Part shown: one piece after another, positions 14,752-31,742 of the stretch
Numbering within the stretch: position 1 is the stretch's first letter
How the letters are laid out: each line of letters starts with the position of its first letter
From: Tautonia marina
Lineage (GTDB): Bacteria; Planctomycetota; Planctomycetia; Isosphaerales; Isosphaeraceae
Direction: 5' to 3'
Length of the DNA stretch: 64,000 nt
Assembly: GCF_009177065.1 (NCBI RefSeq)
Contig: NZ_WEZF01000006.1
Span: 186,001 to 250,000 of the forward strand
Made by a program: the position numbers and the translations under genes
Notes under the pieces: generated by a model
Seen by the model: only the letters and a program-made list of their open reading frames with translations
Told to the model about the DNA's origin: nothing
The model's database searches: none

Positions 14752-14821
14752 CGACCGCTCGGAGAGCGGTTCGATGTATCTTTGCCCGTTCGACTCGATC
14801 CGAGCCAAGGAGTTTCACCCG

Positions 14822-15529
14822 ATGCGCACGATCTTCTCCGCACTCTGTGGCGCCCTGATCTGTTCTGCCGCCGTCGCCTCCGAGTCGGTTCAGGTGCACG
14901 GCGATTATCTCGAAGCCCGGACTGCCGACGTCTTTACCGGCCCTTGCTTCTCAAACGCCGAAGTCTTCATCGTCGGTGATCGAGCCGTCATGGCCTGGAA
15001 GGTCAGGGAAGGTTCGTGGGAAGGGGTCGATCTTTCCGGCTTGAGCGTCGCCGCCGCCGTCCGAGGTACCACGACCTTCTCTGAAGATCGGCCGGAACAG
15101 GCTCTTGCCGTCCTGATCGTCGATGAGCGGGCCGACAACCAGCAGCGCGCCGCTCTGGTCAAGATGGCCCAGCGACTGGGAGGCACGCGACTCGGCCAGG
15201 TGGTCGACGTGAAGGTTTCGGCGATCGACCTCGACATTGATGAGCATTGCCATATGGAAGCCGCGGGACCTGCCCACAAGCATCACCTGATGCCGATGGC
15301 ACCCCCGGCGCGGTTTGCGGCCGAGGGCCTGGCCGAAATCTCGACCCGACCGCTCGATGCCAACGATTGCATTTGCGGCAACGAGGTGATTGCCTATCAG
15401 CCTCTGTCCGAAGGGGTCGAGGTGCAGCCGGCGTATACCGTCGCTCACACTTTCCGCGGCACCGGCCTGGGAAGCACCTGGGCGGCTCCGAACGCCCGGA
15501 GCAGTTTCGTCGGGCAGTTCGCGTACTGA
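14822..15529 (+). CDS. Exported DUF1326-like protein
   Basis: A 235-residue protein starting at the ATG at 14822, chosen over the in-frame ATG at 14774. AAGGAG lies about 9 nt upstream, and the product then begins with a good signal peptide (MRTIFSALCGALICSAAVAS). The mature part opens with VHGDYLEARTADVFTGPC, typical of DUF1326-like proteins, and a conserved-type AVLIVDERADNQQR segment follows. His/Cys-rich stretches (EHCHMEAAGPAHKHH and DCICGN) could bind metal, which is an inference. It is probably periplasmic and has no known function. A predicted promoter lies directly upstream. Confidence 0.75.
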   Translation: MRTIFSALCGALICSAAVASESVQVHGDYLEARTADVFTGPCFSNAEVFIVGDRAVMAWKVREGSWEGVDLSGLSVAAAVRGTTTFSEDRPEQALAVLIVDERADNQQRAALVKMAQRLGGTRLGQVVDVKVSAIDLDIDEHCHMEAAGPAHKHHLMPMAPPARFAAEGLAEISTRPLDANDCICGNEVIAYQPLSEGVEVQPAYTVAHTFRGTGLGSTWAAPNARSSFVGQFAY

Positions 15530-15774: not shown

Positions 15775-16464
15775 ATGCGTACGATGTCGATCATCGTCGC
15801 CTCGGCGATTGGAGCGGCTCTGATCGGGCCGTCCGCCTCGGCGCAGGACTCCTACTCCACCGAGGTCCTTTCCGAGGCACCTCCCGAAGACCTGGCTGCC
15901 CCTGTTCGTGAATCGCTCTCCGACGAAGGAATTCGGGTCCTCGATGCCAAGGGGAAACCGTACCTCGACCTCTGGTTGCGCAAATCGTTGCCGACCCAGG
16001 GAGAAATCACGGAACCGACCGGATCGGTCATCTTTCCGTATCTACAGGTCGGTGAACTCGTGGGGGCTGTCCGCCTGGCCGAAGACACGGGCGACTACAA
16101 GGATCAGGTCATCTTGCCCGGTGTCTACACCATGCGATACGGATTGCAGCCGGTCGATGGGAACCACCTGGGGGTGAGTAAGTTTCGAGATTATGTCCTC
16201 CTTTCGCTCCCCGATGAGGACATCGAGCTTGAGCCGATTCCTCAGGACGATCTGAATGCGGTCAGCACCGGCCCCTCCGCGACGAATCACCCTTCGGTCT
16301 TCTTGCTGTCGCCGGCCGAAGCGGATGCAACGGTTCCTTCGATCGTCTCAGAGGAAAGCGAAAAGCGCACCTCGGTCGTTCTGAGGATTCCCCTGGAAAC
16401 CGATCAGGGTGAAGAGAAAACGCTGACCACTCAACTGGTCATTGTGGGGGCCGGGCCGCACTGA
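15775..16464 (+). CDS. Exported protein, unknown function
   Basis: A 229-residue protein with a signal peptide (MRTMSIIVASAIGAALIGPS, cleavage near ASAQD). The mature part contains a beta-rich region (KPYLDLWLRKSLP, GSVIFPYLQVGELVGAVRL, DQVILPGVYTMRYGLQPVDG) recalling small periplasmic proteins of the DUF2911 type. That resemblance is weak, so no family is claimed. It is flanked by its own terminator and is probably monocistronic. A short GAAGG lies 4 nt before the ATG. Confidence 0.65.
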   Translation: MRTMSIIVASAIGAALIGPSASAQDSYSTEVLSEAPPEDLAAPVRESLSDEGIRVLDAKGKPYLDLWLRKSLPTQGEITEPTGSVIFPYLQVGELVGAVRLAEDTGDYKDQVILPGVYTMRYGLQPVDGNHLGVSKFRDYVLLSLPDEDIELEPIPQDDLNAVSTGPSATNHPSVFLLSPAEADATVPSIVSEESEKRTSVVLRIPLETDQGEEKTLTTQLVIVGAGPH

Positions 16465-24143: not shown

Positions 24144-25376
24144 ATGAGACGACCAATCGGGGCGTGTCCGGTCCTTGGCCTGCTGGTGCTTGTTCTTTGC
24201 CTGGCCGATTCGGGATCGGGCCGAGCGGGGACCGCAAGCGATTCGATCGGAGATGAGCAGGTTCCTGCGTCGCTGCCTGCCGAGGTGATCGATCCAATTC
24301 GGGAGGATGCGGCTTCTCCCGGCGTGACGGCGCGGGCCGAGGTGGAAGGAGTGGTCGCTCCAGGACTTCGGATCCGGCTTCGAGGAGACGGTTCCTCGGG
24401 GCATGGACTGCAATTCCGATGGCTGCAGACCTGGGGACCGACCGCCGAGCTGGATGATCCGACCTCAAGTACACCGTCCTTGATCGTGCCGAGAGCCACG
24501 GGATCAATGGCTTTCGTGCTGGTTGTGCGCAACGCGGAAGCCGTGGATCTGGTCACCCTCCACGTGCCGATTCAATGGGAAGGCAGAGACGCTGTTCCTC
24601 AGGACCTTGTCGCCGATGCCGGCGACGATCAACTGGCCCTGGTCGGTCGGCAAGTGACCCTCAATGGCATTCGAAGCACGCCGAGGGGAGAGATCGGCTA
24701 TCGATGGCTCCAGGTCGAGGGGCCTCCCGTCGCCCTGGAAATCGAGGATGGGTATGTCTACACCTTCGTTCCTGAGTCGCCGGGGCGGTATCGCTTTGCC
24801 CTGGTGGTCGCCTCGGGCACTGCCATCTCTCGCCCGTCGTTCGTGGCCGTCGACGTGCAATCGGCCGCGCCGATGCGGTCGGAAGCGACGGCAGTGGCAC
24901 CTTCCGAGGCGTCGGGCTCGACAATCGCCACCATCGCCTCGGCGGCGCTTCGAGAGGTCTCGGAGGGGCCTGAGCGGGCCGATCGCGTGGCCGGAGTCTT
25001 CGATGGGGTGGCCGGTCGAATGGAACTCTACGCCTCGGCGGCTGAGGCGTTCCGAGAAATCGCCCTCCGGCTCGATGCCGTCTTGCCGGAGGACCTGGAA
25101 ACCAGACAGCGCTGGAATTCCCAGGTCTTCGAGCCGATCAGCGCCGCTGTGCTGGCCGAGTTCGGCCGCCGGGGAATCGATCTCGCTCGGGCCGAAACAA
25201 TGGCCGCAACACTCGCTCCACCGGCCCGCTCGGCGCTGGCCGAACAGTTTCGAACGATTGCCGAAGGCTTCCGATCCGTTGCTTCGTCGGATCGCCAGAG
25301 TGCGATTTCGAGGGGTGACACACCTCACATCGACCAGATCTCCGCGACACCGGAGCAGGGCAGGGGGATTCGATGA
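24144..25376 (+). CDS. Exported PKD-like domain protein
   Basis: A 410-residue protein starting at the ATG at 24144, where a purine-rich GGAGAGGGG lies just upstream. The signal peptide is MRRPIGACPVLGLLVLVLCL. Two PKD/REJ-like beta-sandwich modules follow, at about residues 55-145 (GDGSSGHGLQFRWLQTWGP) and 150-240 (ADAGDDQLALVGRQVTLNG, YRWLQVEGPPVALE). The C-terminal 150 residues are helical and Ala/Glu-rich (AAEAFREIALRLDAVLP). Such modules usually mediate surface adhesion or substrate contact. Its last 4 bp overlap the start of the next gene (ATGA), indicating translational coupling. Confidence 0.72.
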   Translation: MRRPIGACPVLGLLVLVLCLADSGSGRAGTASDSIGDEQVPASLPAEVIDPIREDAASPGVTARAEVEGVVAPGLRIRLRGDGSSGHGLQFRWLQTWGPTAELDDPTSSTPSLIVPRATGSMAFVLVVRNAEAVDLVTLHVPIQWEGRDAVPQDLVADAGDDQLALVGRQVTLNGIRSTPRGEIGYRWLQVEGPPVALEIEDGYVYTFVPESPGRYRFALVVASGTAISRPSFVAVDVQSAAPMRSEATAVAPSEASGSTIATIASAALREVSEGPERADRVAGVFDGVAGRMELYASAAEAFREIALRLDAVLPEDLETRQRWNSQVFEPISAAVLAEFGRRGIDLARAETMAATLAPPARSALAEQFRTIAEGFRSVASSDRQSAISRGDTPHIDQISATPEQGRGIR

Positions 25377-26764
25377 TCACGTCGACCAGGCACTCGATGG
25401 TTCTCGGGGCGATCGGCCTGATGATCGTCTCGCTGTTGATCCCGGCCTCGCCGGTTATCGCTCAAGGTTCGGGAGCCTCCGCGGCCGGGTTCGTGGACTG
25501 CGCCCAGGCGCTGAACGAGACGATCCGTTCCGGACGGCCGACCGTGGTGGTCATCACCTCCCGAGCCGTTCCCGCCTCGGTTGGCCTGCGTGACGGCATG
25601 GCCAGAGACCTGCTCCACAGTTCGATCGGTCAGAGTGCCATGTTCGCCGAGATGCCCGTCGAACTGTTCGCCGACCGGGTCGCACGACTCGGAGTCGAGC
25701 AATATCCGACCTTGCTTGCCTACGGGAGTCGGGATGGGGCCCTGGTGCGGCTTGGATCGCTCGCCGGTCCAACCGACTCGGCCCAGGTGGCTGCCTGGAT
25801 CGGGTCTCTTGGCCTGACGGGAGGGGGGTATGCGACCCCCAGGACCGATCCGTCGGTGAGTCAATCGGGCTTGCTTCACCGGGATCGGGGGTCGTACGTG
25901 GCCGTCCCGGTGGCATCTCCCCAGCAGCCGGTTCAGGCCCCCCCGCCTCCGACCAAGCCGCAACCGCCCACCTCGGGAATGATCCCGGTGGGGCATGCGG
26001 CTCCTCCGGCCATGTCTCCGGTGGTCATGCAGGAATCCGGGCCTCCGGTGATCGTGCAGCAGCAATCGCCGTCAATCTACATCCAGCCGCAGGCCCCTCG
26101 AATCATGCTCGGGCAGATGCCTCCTCCCGAGATCACGATTGTGCAGGGACCTCAGGCGGCCCCGACGATCAACTATGCGGTGGTGGGGGGGCAACCTCAG
26201 GCGGCTCCGAATCTGTTCGCGGTGCCTCAACCTTCGGTTCCGAATCAGGGTGTTCCCTCTCCGCAAGGACCTGCCGCGGCGCCTCCTGAGATTTCGTATA
26301 GTTACTCGACACCCAACCCTGGGGCGACTCTCATGACCGCCGCTCCGATGTCGGGGTTGGCCGTTGCTCCGCAGCAATCGGTCGTTGGAACGACGGCGGT
26401 GGCGCTCTTGCTTCAGAATCCCGATCTGGTCAATTCCATGATCGGCACACTCGGTAAAGGTTTCTCACGGCTCGGCGAAGCCCTGGAACGGCATGGTCAC
26501 CCTCGGGTCCGGTTGCCTCGTTCCGAACCACCGCAGCAATCTGCCGGAACAATGACCCTGGTTCCCGCCATGTCGCTTCCCGCGTCCTCGACGGTTCCCA
26601 TGATGACCGTGCCGGTTCAAACTGAGGCCCCGCCCAGCATGATTCCCGCGTCCCCTGCCTACCCGACGGCGATTCCCTCGCCTCAGTCGGAATCGGGTCA
26701 CGGACATCCCCCGCATTCCACACCCGGACCTCACGCGCCCAAACGCCCCTGGTGGAAGCGTTGA
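25373..26764 (+). CDS. Exported thioredoxin-like protein with Pro/Gln-rich tail
   Basis: A 463-residue protein. A signal peptide (hydrophobic part about 10-30, cleavage near VIAQ) precedes a thioredoxin-like fold of about 110 residues (TVVVITSRAVPASVG, YPTLLAYGSRDGALVRLG) that lacks the CXXC pair. About 280 residues of Pro/Gln/Val-rich low complexity follow, with recurring phrases (AVPVASPQQP, SPSIYIQPQAPR, EITIVQGPQ), ending in KRPWWKR. The start overlaps the PKD gene by 4 bp, so the two are coupled. The tail resembles that of the exported protein at 29907-30455. Cell-surface location is inferred. Confidence 0.68.
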   Translation: MITSTRHSMVLGAIGLMIVSLLIPASPVIAQGSGASAAGFVDCAQALNETIRSGRPTVVVITSRAVPASVGLRDGMARDLLHSSIGQSAMFAEMPVELFADRVARLGVEQYPTLLAYGSRDGALVRLGSLAGPTDSAQVAAWIGSLGLTGGGYATPRTDPSVSQSGLLHRDRGSYVAVPVASPQQPVQAPPPPTKPQPPTSGMIPVGHAAPPAMSPVVMQESGPPVIVQQQSPSIYIQPQAPRIMLGQMPPPEITIVQGPQAAPTINYAVVGGQPQAAPNLFAVPQPSVPNQGVPSPQGPAAAPPEISYSYSTPNPGATLMTAAPMSGLAVAPQQSVVGTTAVALLLQNPDLVNSMIGTLGKGFSRLGEALERHGHPRVRLPRSEPPQQSAGTMTLVPAMSLPASSTVPMMTVPVQTEAPPSMIPASPAYPTAIPSPQSESGHGHPPHSTPGPHAPKRPWWKR

Positions 26765-26788
26765 TCCAGGAAAAGGTGCCCGCGACAA

Positions 26789-26824
26789 CGGAGCGATGCG
26801 TGCCGAGATTCGGCCATCGCTCCG
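26789..26824 (+). other. Stem-loop after the thioredoxin-like protein gene
   Basis: CGGAGCGATG pairs with CATCGCTCCG across 16 nt, 25 nt after the stop codon at 26764. There is no U tract. It may be a transcription stop or a 3' mRNA stabiliser. Confidence 0.45.
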
Positions 26825-27018
26825 GCAAGAGAAGGCATTTCGTTCGTGCCGTCCGTTCCCCTCGGGTTTCAATCGGAATCGATGCATGGGAGGTCAAGAT
26901 TTTTGGATTTTGTGACTAAGGCCGGCCATTTCTCAGATGATTTCTAAAGAACGAGGTCTCTACGTCCTCGACTGCCTTTGGTTTGCTCCGTTGGTCTCCC
27001 CATTTGGAATCAAGCACC

Positions 27019-28137
27019 ATGGTCGACCTCCTCAATGGCATGCTCCCGGTGCCTTGCACCGCGGAGCATCCGCTCGAACAAATGAGCGCACACGGACAAC
27101 TCCGCGCCGGAGCCCTCACCAGCACCCTCTGGGATCGCCCCAAGCGGGGGCCTTTGCAATTGAACGTCGTGTTCCTCGACGGTCACCCGACGATCCACTC
27201 GCTGGTCAAAACGCACGTTCGGGATTGGGAAGCCGCGGCGAATCTGAAGTTCAACTTCCTCAGTCCGGATCGGTTCGTCGATGCTCACATCCGGATCACG
27301 ATGCCGGCGACCCGGATCTTTCAGTCATACATCGGGACCGGAGCGTTGTTGATTGATCGGCGCTTGCCGTCGATGACGCTCGGCTTCACCGACGACGTCC
27401 TGGCGAACCCAAACGAGGTCAAACGGCTCGTCCTGCACGAGTTCGGCCATGCCCTTGGCCTGATCCACGAGCATCAGAACCCCCGGGGGGGGCTGACCTT
27501 CAAGGTTCCCGAGGTCTACGACTATTTCTGGCAGCATCATCGCTGGGACCAGCGCACCGTCCGTGAACAGGTCATTGAACCGACCCGGATCGAGCTGCTG
27601 CACAACGCCACGCAGTTCGATCCGAAATCGATCATGCTCTACGCTTTCCCGGCCTCGATTATCGCCGGAGGCCCTGTCACCGCGACGCAGCTCAACTACG
27701 AACTGTCTGAGTGCGACCGGCGCTACATCGCCTCGCTGTACCCGAAAGACTCAACGCAACCTCCCCCCTCGGTTCCTGTCGAACCGACCGGCTATTTGCC
27801 GCTGCAACTGGGCAAACCCCTGACCGGAACCCTACCGATCCGAGGGGCGGAAATTCCCTACGGCTTCAAGATCGCAACGCCGGGCCGTTACGTCATGGAA
27901 ACCTTCACGCCGGCGGGAAGTCGGGAGGAATACTGGGTTCTCACCCTGCGAGATGCCCGGCAGCAGGTCGTGGCGGACGACCACCACGGCAGCAGTCCAA
28001 GCGGCCTCAACGCCCTGATCGAATGCGATCTGGCCCCAGGGGCGTATCGCCTTCATCTACGGCACCGCCTTCGCTCAGGACTCGGAACGTACGGAATTGT
28101 CGTGCGCAACGCGCAATCGAGGGATTTGCGCGGGTGA
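27019..28137 (+). CDS. Astacin-like zinc metalloprotease with C-terminal PPC-like domain, no visible signal peptide
   Basis: A 372-residue protein from the ATG at 27019; a TTG at 26983 is the alternative but has no ribosome site. The catalytic motif is HEFGHALGLIHE (zinc ligands H140, H144, H150), and the Met-turn is SIMLYAFP near residue 213, as in astacins (M12A). After about residue 255 there is a beta-sandwich resembling the bacterial pre-peptidase PPC domain (PYGFKIATPGRYVMET, CDLAPGAYRLHLRH). The N-terminus (MVDLLNGMLPVPCTAEHP) does not look like a signal peptide although the family is normally secreted. It sits within a run of exported-protein genes. Confidence 0.82.
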   Translation: MVDLLNGMLPVPCTAEHPLEQMSAHGQLRAGALTSTLWDRPKRGPLQLNVVFLDGHPTIHSLVKTHVRDWEAAANLKFNFLSPDRFVDAHIRITMPATRIFQSYIGTGALLIDRRLPSMTLGFTDDVLANPNEVKRLVLHEFGHALGLIHEHQNPRGGLTFKVPEVYDYFWQHHRWDQRTVREQVIEPTRIELLHNATQFDPKSIMLYAFPASIIAGGPVTATQLNYELSECDRRYIASLYPKDSTQPPPSVPVEPTGYLPLQLGKPLTGTLPIRGAEIPYGFKIATPGRYVMETFTPAGSREEYWVLTLRDARQQVVADDHHGSSPSGLNALIECDLAPGAYRLHLRHRLRSGLGTYGIVVRNAQSRDLRG

Positions 28138-28359
28138 TCGACCGCTCAGGCACTGGGGGACCGGCTCCGAGTCGTCTCGGTGCCTGTCTCCGGTTCCGCC
28201 GGAGGCGGTCCTGTTCCACCAGGACCGCTCGGATCGGCCAAACGATCTCACGCGGCTTGAATTCGCATCGGCTCAATTTGGCTGCTATACTTGCGTGGTT
28301 TGGCTCACAAGAGCCGCTCCTTGAGCCCGATTCCCTGAGCCAGTGGAGCGGCTAGCTAA

Positions 28360-28374
28360 CCTCACCTGGTGAGG
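28360..28374. promoter_or_regulatory. 15-nt palindrome upstream of the four-repeat gene
   Basis: CCTCACC-T-GGTGAGG is a perfect palindrome with a one-base centre, starting 52 nt before the GTG start at 28412. An operator is possible, and a transcript stem is less likely because there is no loop. Confidence 0.3.
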
Positions 28375-28411
28375 TGAGGGGCATTGCATTTCGAACGGGA
28401 GGGGGAACCCC

Positions 28412-29794
28412 GTGAATCGACTCGGCCCGACCTCCTTCTGGATCGTCCTGGTATGTCTGGTTGCGCCGGCCTCGATGGGGCAAGTTGCGGCTCAGGGGCA
28501 AGAGCGCGCGGTCGATCCGGAGGAGGTTTCGCTTGCTCCGGAGCAGTTCGATCTGATCCACCGCACGCTCCAGGGAGTTCACGACGAACTGAAGGCAGCG
28601 GACCCCGACATTGCCGCCGACACCTTGCGGGGACGGTTGTTGATCGAAGCGTATCAACTCATCAACAACGTGATGAACACCGGTCTGTCTGACGACCAAC
28701 TTCTGCTCCTTCCCGACTCGTTGAAAGAGGATGCCGGGCGGCTTGTCTCGATCGTTGTGGAAGATGAGCATTCTGATGCTCCAGGAACGGACCAGGGGCC
28801 GTTGCTGATCGACGATTCGTCCATCCCCGTTCGTCTGCGTCCGTTTCAGCCAATCCTCGCGGAGGTGCTTGCGGATCGCTTCGCGCAACTCAAGGCATCA
28901 AATCTCGATCCAGCAACACTGCGGAAGACGTTTGAGCAAGAGGCGATTGAGATGGCCGCCAGAGCAATCTCTCCCTCAGACGATCCGCGTGATCTGGTTG
29001 AGGCGGAACGGGACTATGTCGTCGCGCTCGCGTCGGGGATCGCCGGAGGGAACCTGAACCCAACGAATGATGCCGACCCTGCCGATGACCTCTTGCTTCA
29101 AGACGAGCTTGATGGAATTGCCGAGCTTCTCAGACGAAAAAACGCCGAGTGGAAGATCTCGGGAGAATGGCCTGCGATCAAGGATCGGATCGACCGGCTC
29201 GAACAGTTTGGAATGGCCCTGCTCGAGGAGAGTCTTCAGCGTCGTGATGCCGAGGCGTCCATCCCCATTTCGGCCCAGAAGCAAATCCGGGCCATGGCGG
29301 AAGTGATCGCTCGGGGCATTCCGCTGGCGCTTCGTCCAGAGACGACGACCCCCATCACTCCCGACGAGCCTTCCGAGCCCGACGAGCCTTCCGAACCCGA
29401 GGAACCGCCGAGCGTCGAGCCGTTTGAACTGGCCCCGGAACAGTTTCAGCGACTGGCGAGACTGGCCAGAGCCGTCGATCAGGGGCTTATCGTCGCCGGG
29501 ATCGACCTGCCCACGCGACGTACCACACTCCGCAAATTTTTCCGAGAGCATGCGGCACACCGTATCGGTCGAACCGTGGAATCCCTTCCCCCGGAGTTTC
29601 TTGAGGCGGTCGATCACGAGGTTGAGCGGATCTTGGCCGAACACTCCGGTGTGATCGATCCTGGGTACCCTCCCGTCATCGTTCAACCTCCGGTGGTCAC
29701 GGTTCCTCCGATCATCGCGGTTCCGACGACGGATCGGCCGATCCGGGTGGGTGTTCCCGACCGTCACTCCCGGTGGTGCTTCCCCTGGAACTGA
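28412..29794 (+). CDS. Exported protein with four internal helical repeats
   Basis: A 460-residue protein beginning at GTG with a GGGAGGGGG ribosome site just upstream. A signal peptide (FWIVLVCLVAPASMGQVAAQ) is followed by about four degenerate helical repeats of roughly 75 residues, at about 40-120, 134-212, 222-305 and 345-420. Compare LAPEQFDLIHRTLQGVHDEL, LRPFQPILAEVLADRFAQL, LQDELDGIAELLRRKNAEW and LAPEQFQRLARLARAVDQGL. Acidic PDEPSEPDEPSEPEEP separates units three and four. The tail is Pro/Val-rich (YPPVIVQPPVVTVPP) and ends in aromatic WCFPWN. I do not recognise the family. Confidence 0.7.
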   Translation: MNRLGPTSFWIVLVCLVAPASMGQVAAQGQERAVDPEEVSLAPEQFDLIHRTLQGVHDELKAADPDIAADTLRGRLLIEAYQLINNVMNTGLSDDQLLLLPDSLKEDAGRLVSIVVEDEHSDAPGTDQGPLLIDDSSIPVRLRPFQPILAEVLADRFAQLKASNLDPATLRKTFEQEAIEMAARAISPSDDPRDLVEAERDYVVALASGIAGGNLNPTNDADPADDLLLQDELDGIAELLRRKNAEWKISGEWPAIKDRIDRLEQFGMALLEESLQRRDAEASIPISAQKQIRAMAEVIARGIPLALRPETTTPITPDEPSEPDEPSEPEEPPSVEPFELAPEQFQRLARLARAVDQGLIVAGIDLPTRRTTLRKFFREHAAHRIGRTVESLPPEFLEAVDHEVERILAEHSGVIDPGYPPVIVQPPVVTVPPIIAVPTTDRPIRVGVPDRHSRWCFPWN

Positions 29795-29906
29795 CACAGT
29801 CTCCCCATCGAGTCCCCGAAGCTCGAATCGGTTGGCTCGACGCGCTCGAAACGCCTTCCGACCTGAACACGGATTGGGTCATTCTTTGTCAACGGAGCGA
29901 ACGACC

Positions 29907-30455
29907 ATGAGGTTGTCCTCGATCAGTGTCCGGTGCCTGACCTTGCTCGGGGTCGTCCTCCTGACACCCGGGCTCATTGAGCAATCTGCCAACGCCGGTG
30001 ATCTCTTTCGAAAAAAAGGGCAGTTGATCGCGGTTCCCGTTGCGCAGCCCGCGGCCTCCCCCTCGATCCTGTACGCCTTGCCGACGCAACCGGCTCAGGT
30101 CAGCGTGCTCCACGTCCCAACGCAACAAGCACTGGTTGCGGTACCGAGCTACGGGAGTGTGGCGAAATCGATGGTCCAGGTTCAGCAGCACGCCCCCCCC
30201 GAGCGAGGCGATTCCCCCTCGATTCAGATCACGGTGATCGAAGGTGATTCGTCCCGGTCGACTCCCTCGCCTCAGGCGTCGGGGCAGTTGCAGGGGAAAT
30301 CTCAGACTCAGGTTCAGTATTTCTCTGTGCAACCGCAGTCGGTGACCTACGTTGCCCCGATCGTCTCGCAAGCCGTCGCGGTGCCGCAGGCGACCCCGGT
30401 GCAGATCTACTACGTGCCCCCGGCTCCCAAGCGGTCCTGGTTCAAGTCGCACTGA
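29907..30455 (+). CDS. Small exported Pro/Gln/Val-rich protein
   Basis: A 182-residue protein starting at the ATG at 29907, with GGAG about 10 nt upstream. A signal peptide (LSSISVRCLTLLGVVLLTPG, cleavage near NANA-like SANAG) is followed by DLFRKKGQLIAVPVAQPAAS and then low complexity to the end, PPAPKRSWFKSH. Phrases shared with the protein at 25373-26764 (AVPVA, SPSI, ITV, and a final KR-W-x-K) suggest the two are related, perhaps a surface-exposed repeat class. No catalytic domain is present. Its own terminator follows at 30493. Confidence 0.6.
   Translation: MRLSSISVRCLTLLGVVLLTPGLIEQSANAGDLFRKKGQLIAVPVAQPAASPSILYALPTQPAQVSVLHVPTQQALVAVPSYGSVAKSMVQVQQHAPPERGDSPSIQITVIEGDSSRSTPSPQASGQLQGKSQTQVQYFSVQPQSVTYVAPIVSQAVAVPQATPVQIYYVPPAPKRSWFKSH

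Positions 30456-30597: not shown

Positions 30598-31742
<1,145 letters not shown>

Follow-up and report, generated by a model that had tools for sequence, protein, structure and literature searches.

A family-specific pair of exported-type genes in Isosphaeraceae, with low-complexity companions and a changeable protease nearby

A 64,000-nucleotide stretch of the Tautonia marina genome (genus Tautonia, family Isosphaeraceae; here called the window) carries five successive plus-strand genes, P0001 to P0005, at positions 24144-30455. The first two recur side by side across the family, and comparison of sequences supports their description as a tight, conserved, family-specific pair of exported-type genes. 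The same comparison supports a wider family-specific exported set, made up of the pair, its low-complexity companions and a protease that is usually present and exchangeable. An initial annotation, made from the sequence alone, had described a PKD-like protein, a thioredoxin-like protein with a proline/glutamine-rich (Pro/Gln-rich) tail, an astacin-like metalloprotease, a four-repeat protein and a Pro/Gln/Val-rich protein, and had suggested as possible an undescribed cell-surface assembly with its own maturation protease. The five genes were confirmed at 24144-25376, 25373-26764, 27019-28137, 28412-29794 and 29907-30455. Signal-peptide-like N-termini, recognized by a crude home-made rule and by eye, are present in P0001, P0002, P0004 and P0005, and P0003 has none. 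Scans of those four proteins with Pfam and NCBIfam gave no match above curated cut-offs, and PADLOC defence models matched none of the five. Genomes and loci other than the window are referred to by G and L numbers.

P0001 (24144-25376) is predicted to fold into two beta-sandwiches followed by a helical C-terminal domain (mean predicted local distance difference test score 77, from 11 sequences). The first PKD/immunoglobulin-like (Ig-like) domain, at 24321-24578 (about residues 60-145), is variable and absent from some relatives, while the second, PKD-like one at 24600-24863 (about residues 153-240) is the best conserved part (DAGDDQ..VGR.VTLNG); the helical domain lies at 24921-25313 (about residues 260-390). 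When the model was compared with known structures, a PKD domain matched residues 149-247 (Z 10.9, root-mean-square deviation (rmsd) 4.7 over 99 residues); other Ig-like chains scored close to it for this second sandwich, and the search was informative mainly for the sandwich and hardly for the helical domain. The PKD-bearing part of an NCBIfam M36 model also matches, far under its cut-off. Model and structure comparison together bear out the PKD-like label, for two domains; P0001 differs from known PKD and Ig-like proteins in having no Pfam match and in joining the sandwich to a helical domain.

Relatives of P0001 were found at 25 places in 21 of 45 Isosphaeraceae genomes. Among 397 genomes of the class, 28 match the P0001 profile, 21 of them within the family, and the other seven match around the PKD part only. 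Neither the full-length protein nor the helical domain was seen outside Isosphaeraceae in these 397 genomes, with at most five candidate stretches scored per genome. A profile from a smaller alignment, run against named genomes, recovered ten Isosphaeraceae loci and eleven others with partial matches only. The gene caller shortened P0001 of the window, and the P0001 gene of L077 was lost in a second gene call.

The start codon of P0002 (25373-26764) overlaps the P0001 stop (ATGA, 4 bases). Context was sufficient to read 24 loci, the G059 locus, on a 3-kb contig, being excluded from the context counts; in 23 of them the next gene after the P0001 relative, on its strand, is of the P0002 type (22 called, and one in G022, L069, which the gene caller missed and which was read by hand). 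The sole readable locus lacking one is G010 C60 (L083); the P0002-type gene of L077 was shortened by the caller. By sequence similarity, relatives of P0002 are found in 8 of 40 genomes. The P0002-type proteins have low mutual sequence similarity and a common plan: often a thioredoxin domain, then a stretch rich in Pro and Gln, a helix of one of two types, SPQ and an end that is basic and often aromatic. Profiles of the two helix types gave 10 and 12 matches in family genomes, one of them weak (E 0.002), and all adjoin a P0001 relative; outside the family there was one weak 25-residue match, with at most 14 candidate stretches scored per genome. In P0002 itself the model is confident at residues ~40-150 only, with a helix at residues 350-373 (26420-26491), the signature helix of P0002-type proteins, and the remainder unpredicted. 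The predicted thioredoxin fold, at residues 37-150 (25481-25822), compares well with known structures (Z 14.9, rmsd 1.8 over 105 residues). The earlier description of this protein is upheld, fold and tail alike, with the difference from thioredoxin that CxxC occurs nowhere in the sequence, that the start is of export type and that 300 Pro/Gln-rich residues follow the domain.

The C-terminal tail of P0002, with PSPQ and the basic-aromatic end KRPWWKR, lies at 26675-26764. SPQ, or its variants SSQ or TPQ, stands 8-40 residues before the C-end in all 22 called P0002-type proteins (strict SPQ in 19, SSQ or TPQ in three), whereas among the last 50 residues of 925 control proteins strict SPQ was found in 2 and the relaxed set in 17. 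A basic-aromatic end is present in 13 of the 22 compared with 41 of the 925 controls; the tail and PSPQ rules behind these figures were set after the proteins had been inspected, and the relatives are not independent of one another. The LPXTG and PEP-CTERM sorting signals combine a short conserved C-terminal motif with basic residues that follow it. The tails of P0002 and P0005 are similar in motif and basic residues but, judged by eye on the 22 tails, are without the hydrophobic transmembrane stretch, no hydrophobic segment lying between PSPQ and the C-end.

Around the pair, low-complexity proteins (at least 120 residues, at least 55% P, Q, A, V, S and T, P0002 types excluded) were found at 18 of the 24 P0001 loci compared with 4 of 60 random regions, and five loci where a papain or astacin stands without P0001 had none. 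In the window this class includes P0005 (29907-30455), an exported-type Pro/Gln/Val-rich protein ending in KRSWFKSH, one of 6 among the 18 cases with a strict basic-aromatic end. The phrases that the initial annotation had noted as common to two of the proteins, namely AVPVA, SPSI and a final KR-W-x-K, are indeed there in P0002 and P0005, the ends being KRPWWKR and KRSWFKSH. Some low-complexity proteins are related to one another across genera, and they group by profile: F20 with L072_2 and L079_4, F29 with L073_11, and F21 with L081_4. P0004 (28412-29794) is an exported-type, helical protein with a V/P-rich C-end that carries the additional terminal sequence RHSRWCFPWN. Its description as a four-repeat protein did not hold: of the six pairings of its four segments, only 1 with 4 was convincing (hhalign E 1.3e-5, probability 59%). 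Relatives of P0004 were found in 4 of 45 family genomes, one of them weak, and of P0005 in 2 of 45; P0004 also gave a weak profile match to L072_2 (probability 33%). Profiles were compared to see whether low-complexity proteins, in their helical parts, belong to one family with the P0004 segments and the helical domain of P0001; most pairs failed, and the idea was rejected.

P0003 (27019-28137) is predicted to be a metzincin peptidase. Its closest solved relative is myroilysin (E 4.5e-26, aligned over P0003 residues 33-244), and it carries the HExxHxxGxxHE zinc motif as HEFGHALGLIHE at residue 140 (27436-27471) and the Met-turn SIMLY at residue 204 (27628-27642). These features sustain the label astacin-like, even though the Pfam Astacin score of 15.7 bits is below the cut-off of 22.5. 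The NCBIfam name beta-glucuronidase AbsR1 (E 3.6e-18) was set aside at 65.7 bits against a cut-off of 650. A cysteine switch has been described in myroilysin (PMC9848320). Cys13 of P0003 (27055-27057) has an equivalent in 7 of 9 aligned relatives and is a candidate for such a switch, its place being plausible in the alignment and the mechanism taken by analogy. P0003 shares with this M12A metzincin the zinc motif, the Met-turn and an N-terminal cysteine at a plausible place for a switch; it differs in having no signal peptide and in an additional C-terminal beta-rich part. Its relatives occur in 13 of 45 family genomes.

Proteases of several kinds are found near relatives of P0001. Of the 25 places, 18 have a papain, a metzincin or a large HExxH-motif protein no more than 8 kb away: papain-family proteins (PF00112) in G002, G014, G041, G020 and G007; astacin-family or P0003-type metzincins in G000, G003, G016, G051, G053, G050, G055 and G007; and members of F9, exported-type proteins of 1200-1700 residues with a conserved HExxH, in G054, G058, G016, G041 and G023. 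Three further places, not counted in the 18, have other peptidases near: a subtilase (G001), an M49 peptidase (G008) and a weak NAL1-like match (G004). Within P0001-bearing genomes, 5 of 13 papains (expected 0.037), 6 of 12 PF01400 matches (0.030), 6 of 17 P0003-type matches (0.042) and 5 of 6 members of the HExxH family (0.016) lie within 8 kb of P0001, that is, 5 papains against 0.04, 9 metzincins together against 0.05 and 5 F9 proteins against 0.02, where the expectations derive from genome-wide counts and genome sizes and treat related loci as independent. Profiles or single sequences representing the protease types of the P0001 loci found no match in 60 random 20-kb regions (925 genes, from eight of the P0001-bearing genomes). 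F9 is in no family genome that lacks P0001. A CLCA-like identity for F9 was unsupported by a PDB profile search, and because only a weak M6 match was left the family is named by its motif alone. A second, shorter F9-like copy stands in tandem with the first in G041 (C266 116188-119004). Beside the papain gene in four of the five papain loci is a gene for a chagasin-like (I42) exported-type protein (L065 5635-6171, L070 12659-13285, L073 13288-13779 and L080 7929-8387), all below the Pfam cut-off.

Protease labels cluster on the tree of P0001 relatives without being fixed. At least 12 label changes are needed, where the least possible is 9 and shuffles average 16; one label was used per locus, though G055 has both a metzincin and M49 and caspases are present at two loci as well. 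G050 is sister to three astacin-bearing loci in G051, G016 and G053 (support 100/98): it has no astacin, and has a caspase-like and metzincin pair where the sister lineages have the astacin, while sharing a short exported-type gene with all three sisters and the F21 gene with two. In genomes with two P0001 copies (G041, G016, G007 and G010) the copies fall on opposite sides of the tree and differ in their neighbours, the deepest split itself being weak (76/12). Gene content around the pair also varies among genera.

The reading that we favour, at a probability of roughly 0.4, is an Isosphaeraceae-specific surface or matrix assembly remodelled by an interchangeable, co-encoded protease. P0001 and P0002 would be the conserved core of this exported assembly, probably a cell-surface or extracellular-matrix structure. 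P0001 would supply Ig-like binding domains; P0002 would contribute a thioredoxin domain that is redox-dead and a long, disordered arm, rich in Pro and Gln, that carries the conserved PSPQ and the basic-aromatic end. Further low-complexity exported proteins, such as P0005 and, less surely, P0004, may act as co-polymers, and the co-encoded endopeptidase would trim or remodel the disordered arms. In the window the metzincin P0003 would take that slot, and would need to leave the cytoplasm. Replacement by an unrelated protease would be tolerated because the cutting of a disordered arm demands little specificity. Biofilm and matrix loci of other bacteria encode exported structural proteins together with a processing enzyme. 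The likeness is in this combination; no sequence relation to them was shown, and here the protease family varies by locus. Tautonia plasticadhaerens is described, in PMC7716859, as having abundant extracellular matrix and as adhering to plastic, which fits the surface-matrix reading as background and proves nothing. A bolder version, which we regard as doubtful, is an undescribed exported platform with a standing endopeptidase slot filled differently by lineage (metzincins, astacins, papains with a chagasin-like inhibitor, HExxH giants, perhaps subtilases or M49), in which PSPQ and the basic-aromatic end would be a new attachment or assembly signal.

The main rival to a surface or matrix assembly, less probable and yet to be taken seriously, makes the protease the payload, with P0001, P0002 and the low-complexity proteins serving to anchor or deliver a protease that acts outside the cell in feeding or antagonism. 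Such a role would suit the presence, at one kind of locus, of three or more mutually unrelated protease families and the at least 12 label changes on the tree, and the sub-cut-off chagasin-like neighbours of the papains are as expected if a dangerous enzyme needs restraint; on the other hand, no fusion of protease and module was seen, P0003 here is without an export signal, and no immunity-like gene was identified at the metzincin loci. Next in order, and rather unlikely, two separate units may simply adjoin, P0001-P0002 and P0003-P0004 (perhaps with P0005), the protease being intracellular. This would account for the gaps of 254, 274 and 112 bases that follow the first pair, for the missing signal peptide of P0003, and for the state of G001, where P0003-P0004 stand alone and a subtilase neighbours the P0001 relative, on a different contig. 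Weighing against it, P0003-type metzincins are also near P0001 relatives in G050, G055 and G007 C162, far above expectation. An ordinary island of secreted-protein genes, linked in function only within the P0001-P0002 pair, appears improbable: genera do differ in the genes around the pair, but co-location is strong compared with random regions of the same genomes and with protease loci that lack P0001.

Several observations count against the favoured assembly. No signal peptide was found in P0003 by rule or by eye, with at most 12 residues of reading frame upstream, nor by eye in its relatives in G003, G001 and G050. Of three other Tautonia genomes, G003 alone keeps the complete five-gene order, and in another, G001, P0003-P0004 remain at the HemQ-like gene without P0001-P0002, the P0001 relative being on a separate contig. 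These two facts, the absent signal peptide and the independence in G001, are the main ones against the initial annotation for this gene, judged from sequence. That the protease families near P0001 are mutually unrelated argues against one conserved cleavage step or site. Promoter and terminator scans of the locus gave no clear operon. The co-location expectations overstate significance because related loci are not independent; the F9 proteins are called proteases from the HExxH motif and the weak M6 match only; G022 has none of the tested protease kinds nearby, and at three places (two in G010, and G059) the contigs are too short to judge. The hand-read partner in G022 has none of SPQ, SSQ or TPQ, several P0002 relatives are without the thioredoxin domain, and not all keep the tail.

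What had been proposed earlier therefore survives in part. Conservation of gene order across Isosphaeraceae failed for the full order and held for the core pair, present in roughly half of the family's genomes; the undescribed exported assembly has comparative support in the pair, its low-complexity companions and the nearby protease. A dedicated maturation protease is not the sole reading, because the PSPQ tail persists while the proteases found nearby come from one unrelated family or another. A literature search found no published description of the module, most subscription journals being outside its scope. If the favoured assembly is real, planctomycete surfaces and matrices, poorly known molecularly, would gain a defined and testable gene set, the locus would be a series of natural experiments pairing the same exported proteins with unrelated proteases, and there would be a candidate C-terminal signal to search for.

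Gene pairs encoding a caspase-like protein and a P0003-type metzincin were noticed at L075 (12442-16437), L081 (3485-17215) and L089 (9151-12746). In L075 the caspase-like member of the pair is matched by a PADLOC caspase model (E 3e-27), and the caspase-like neighbour in G050 matches PADLOC model PDLC02987. In the window, a HemQ/chlorite-dismutase-like gene lies upstream of the five genes on the minus strand and gapA and pgk lie downstream (all named by eye), with a perfect TTGACA-18-TATAAT promoter-like site at 30598-30627 ahead of the gapA-like gene. Two other window genes, at 14774-15529 and 15784-16464, have relatives in the distant genome G054 (L066 18217-19673), where they lie 8-11 kb from the P0001 relative, on its other side.

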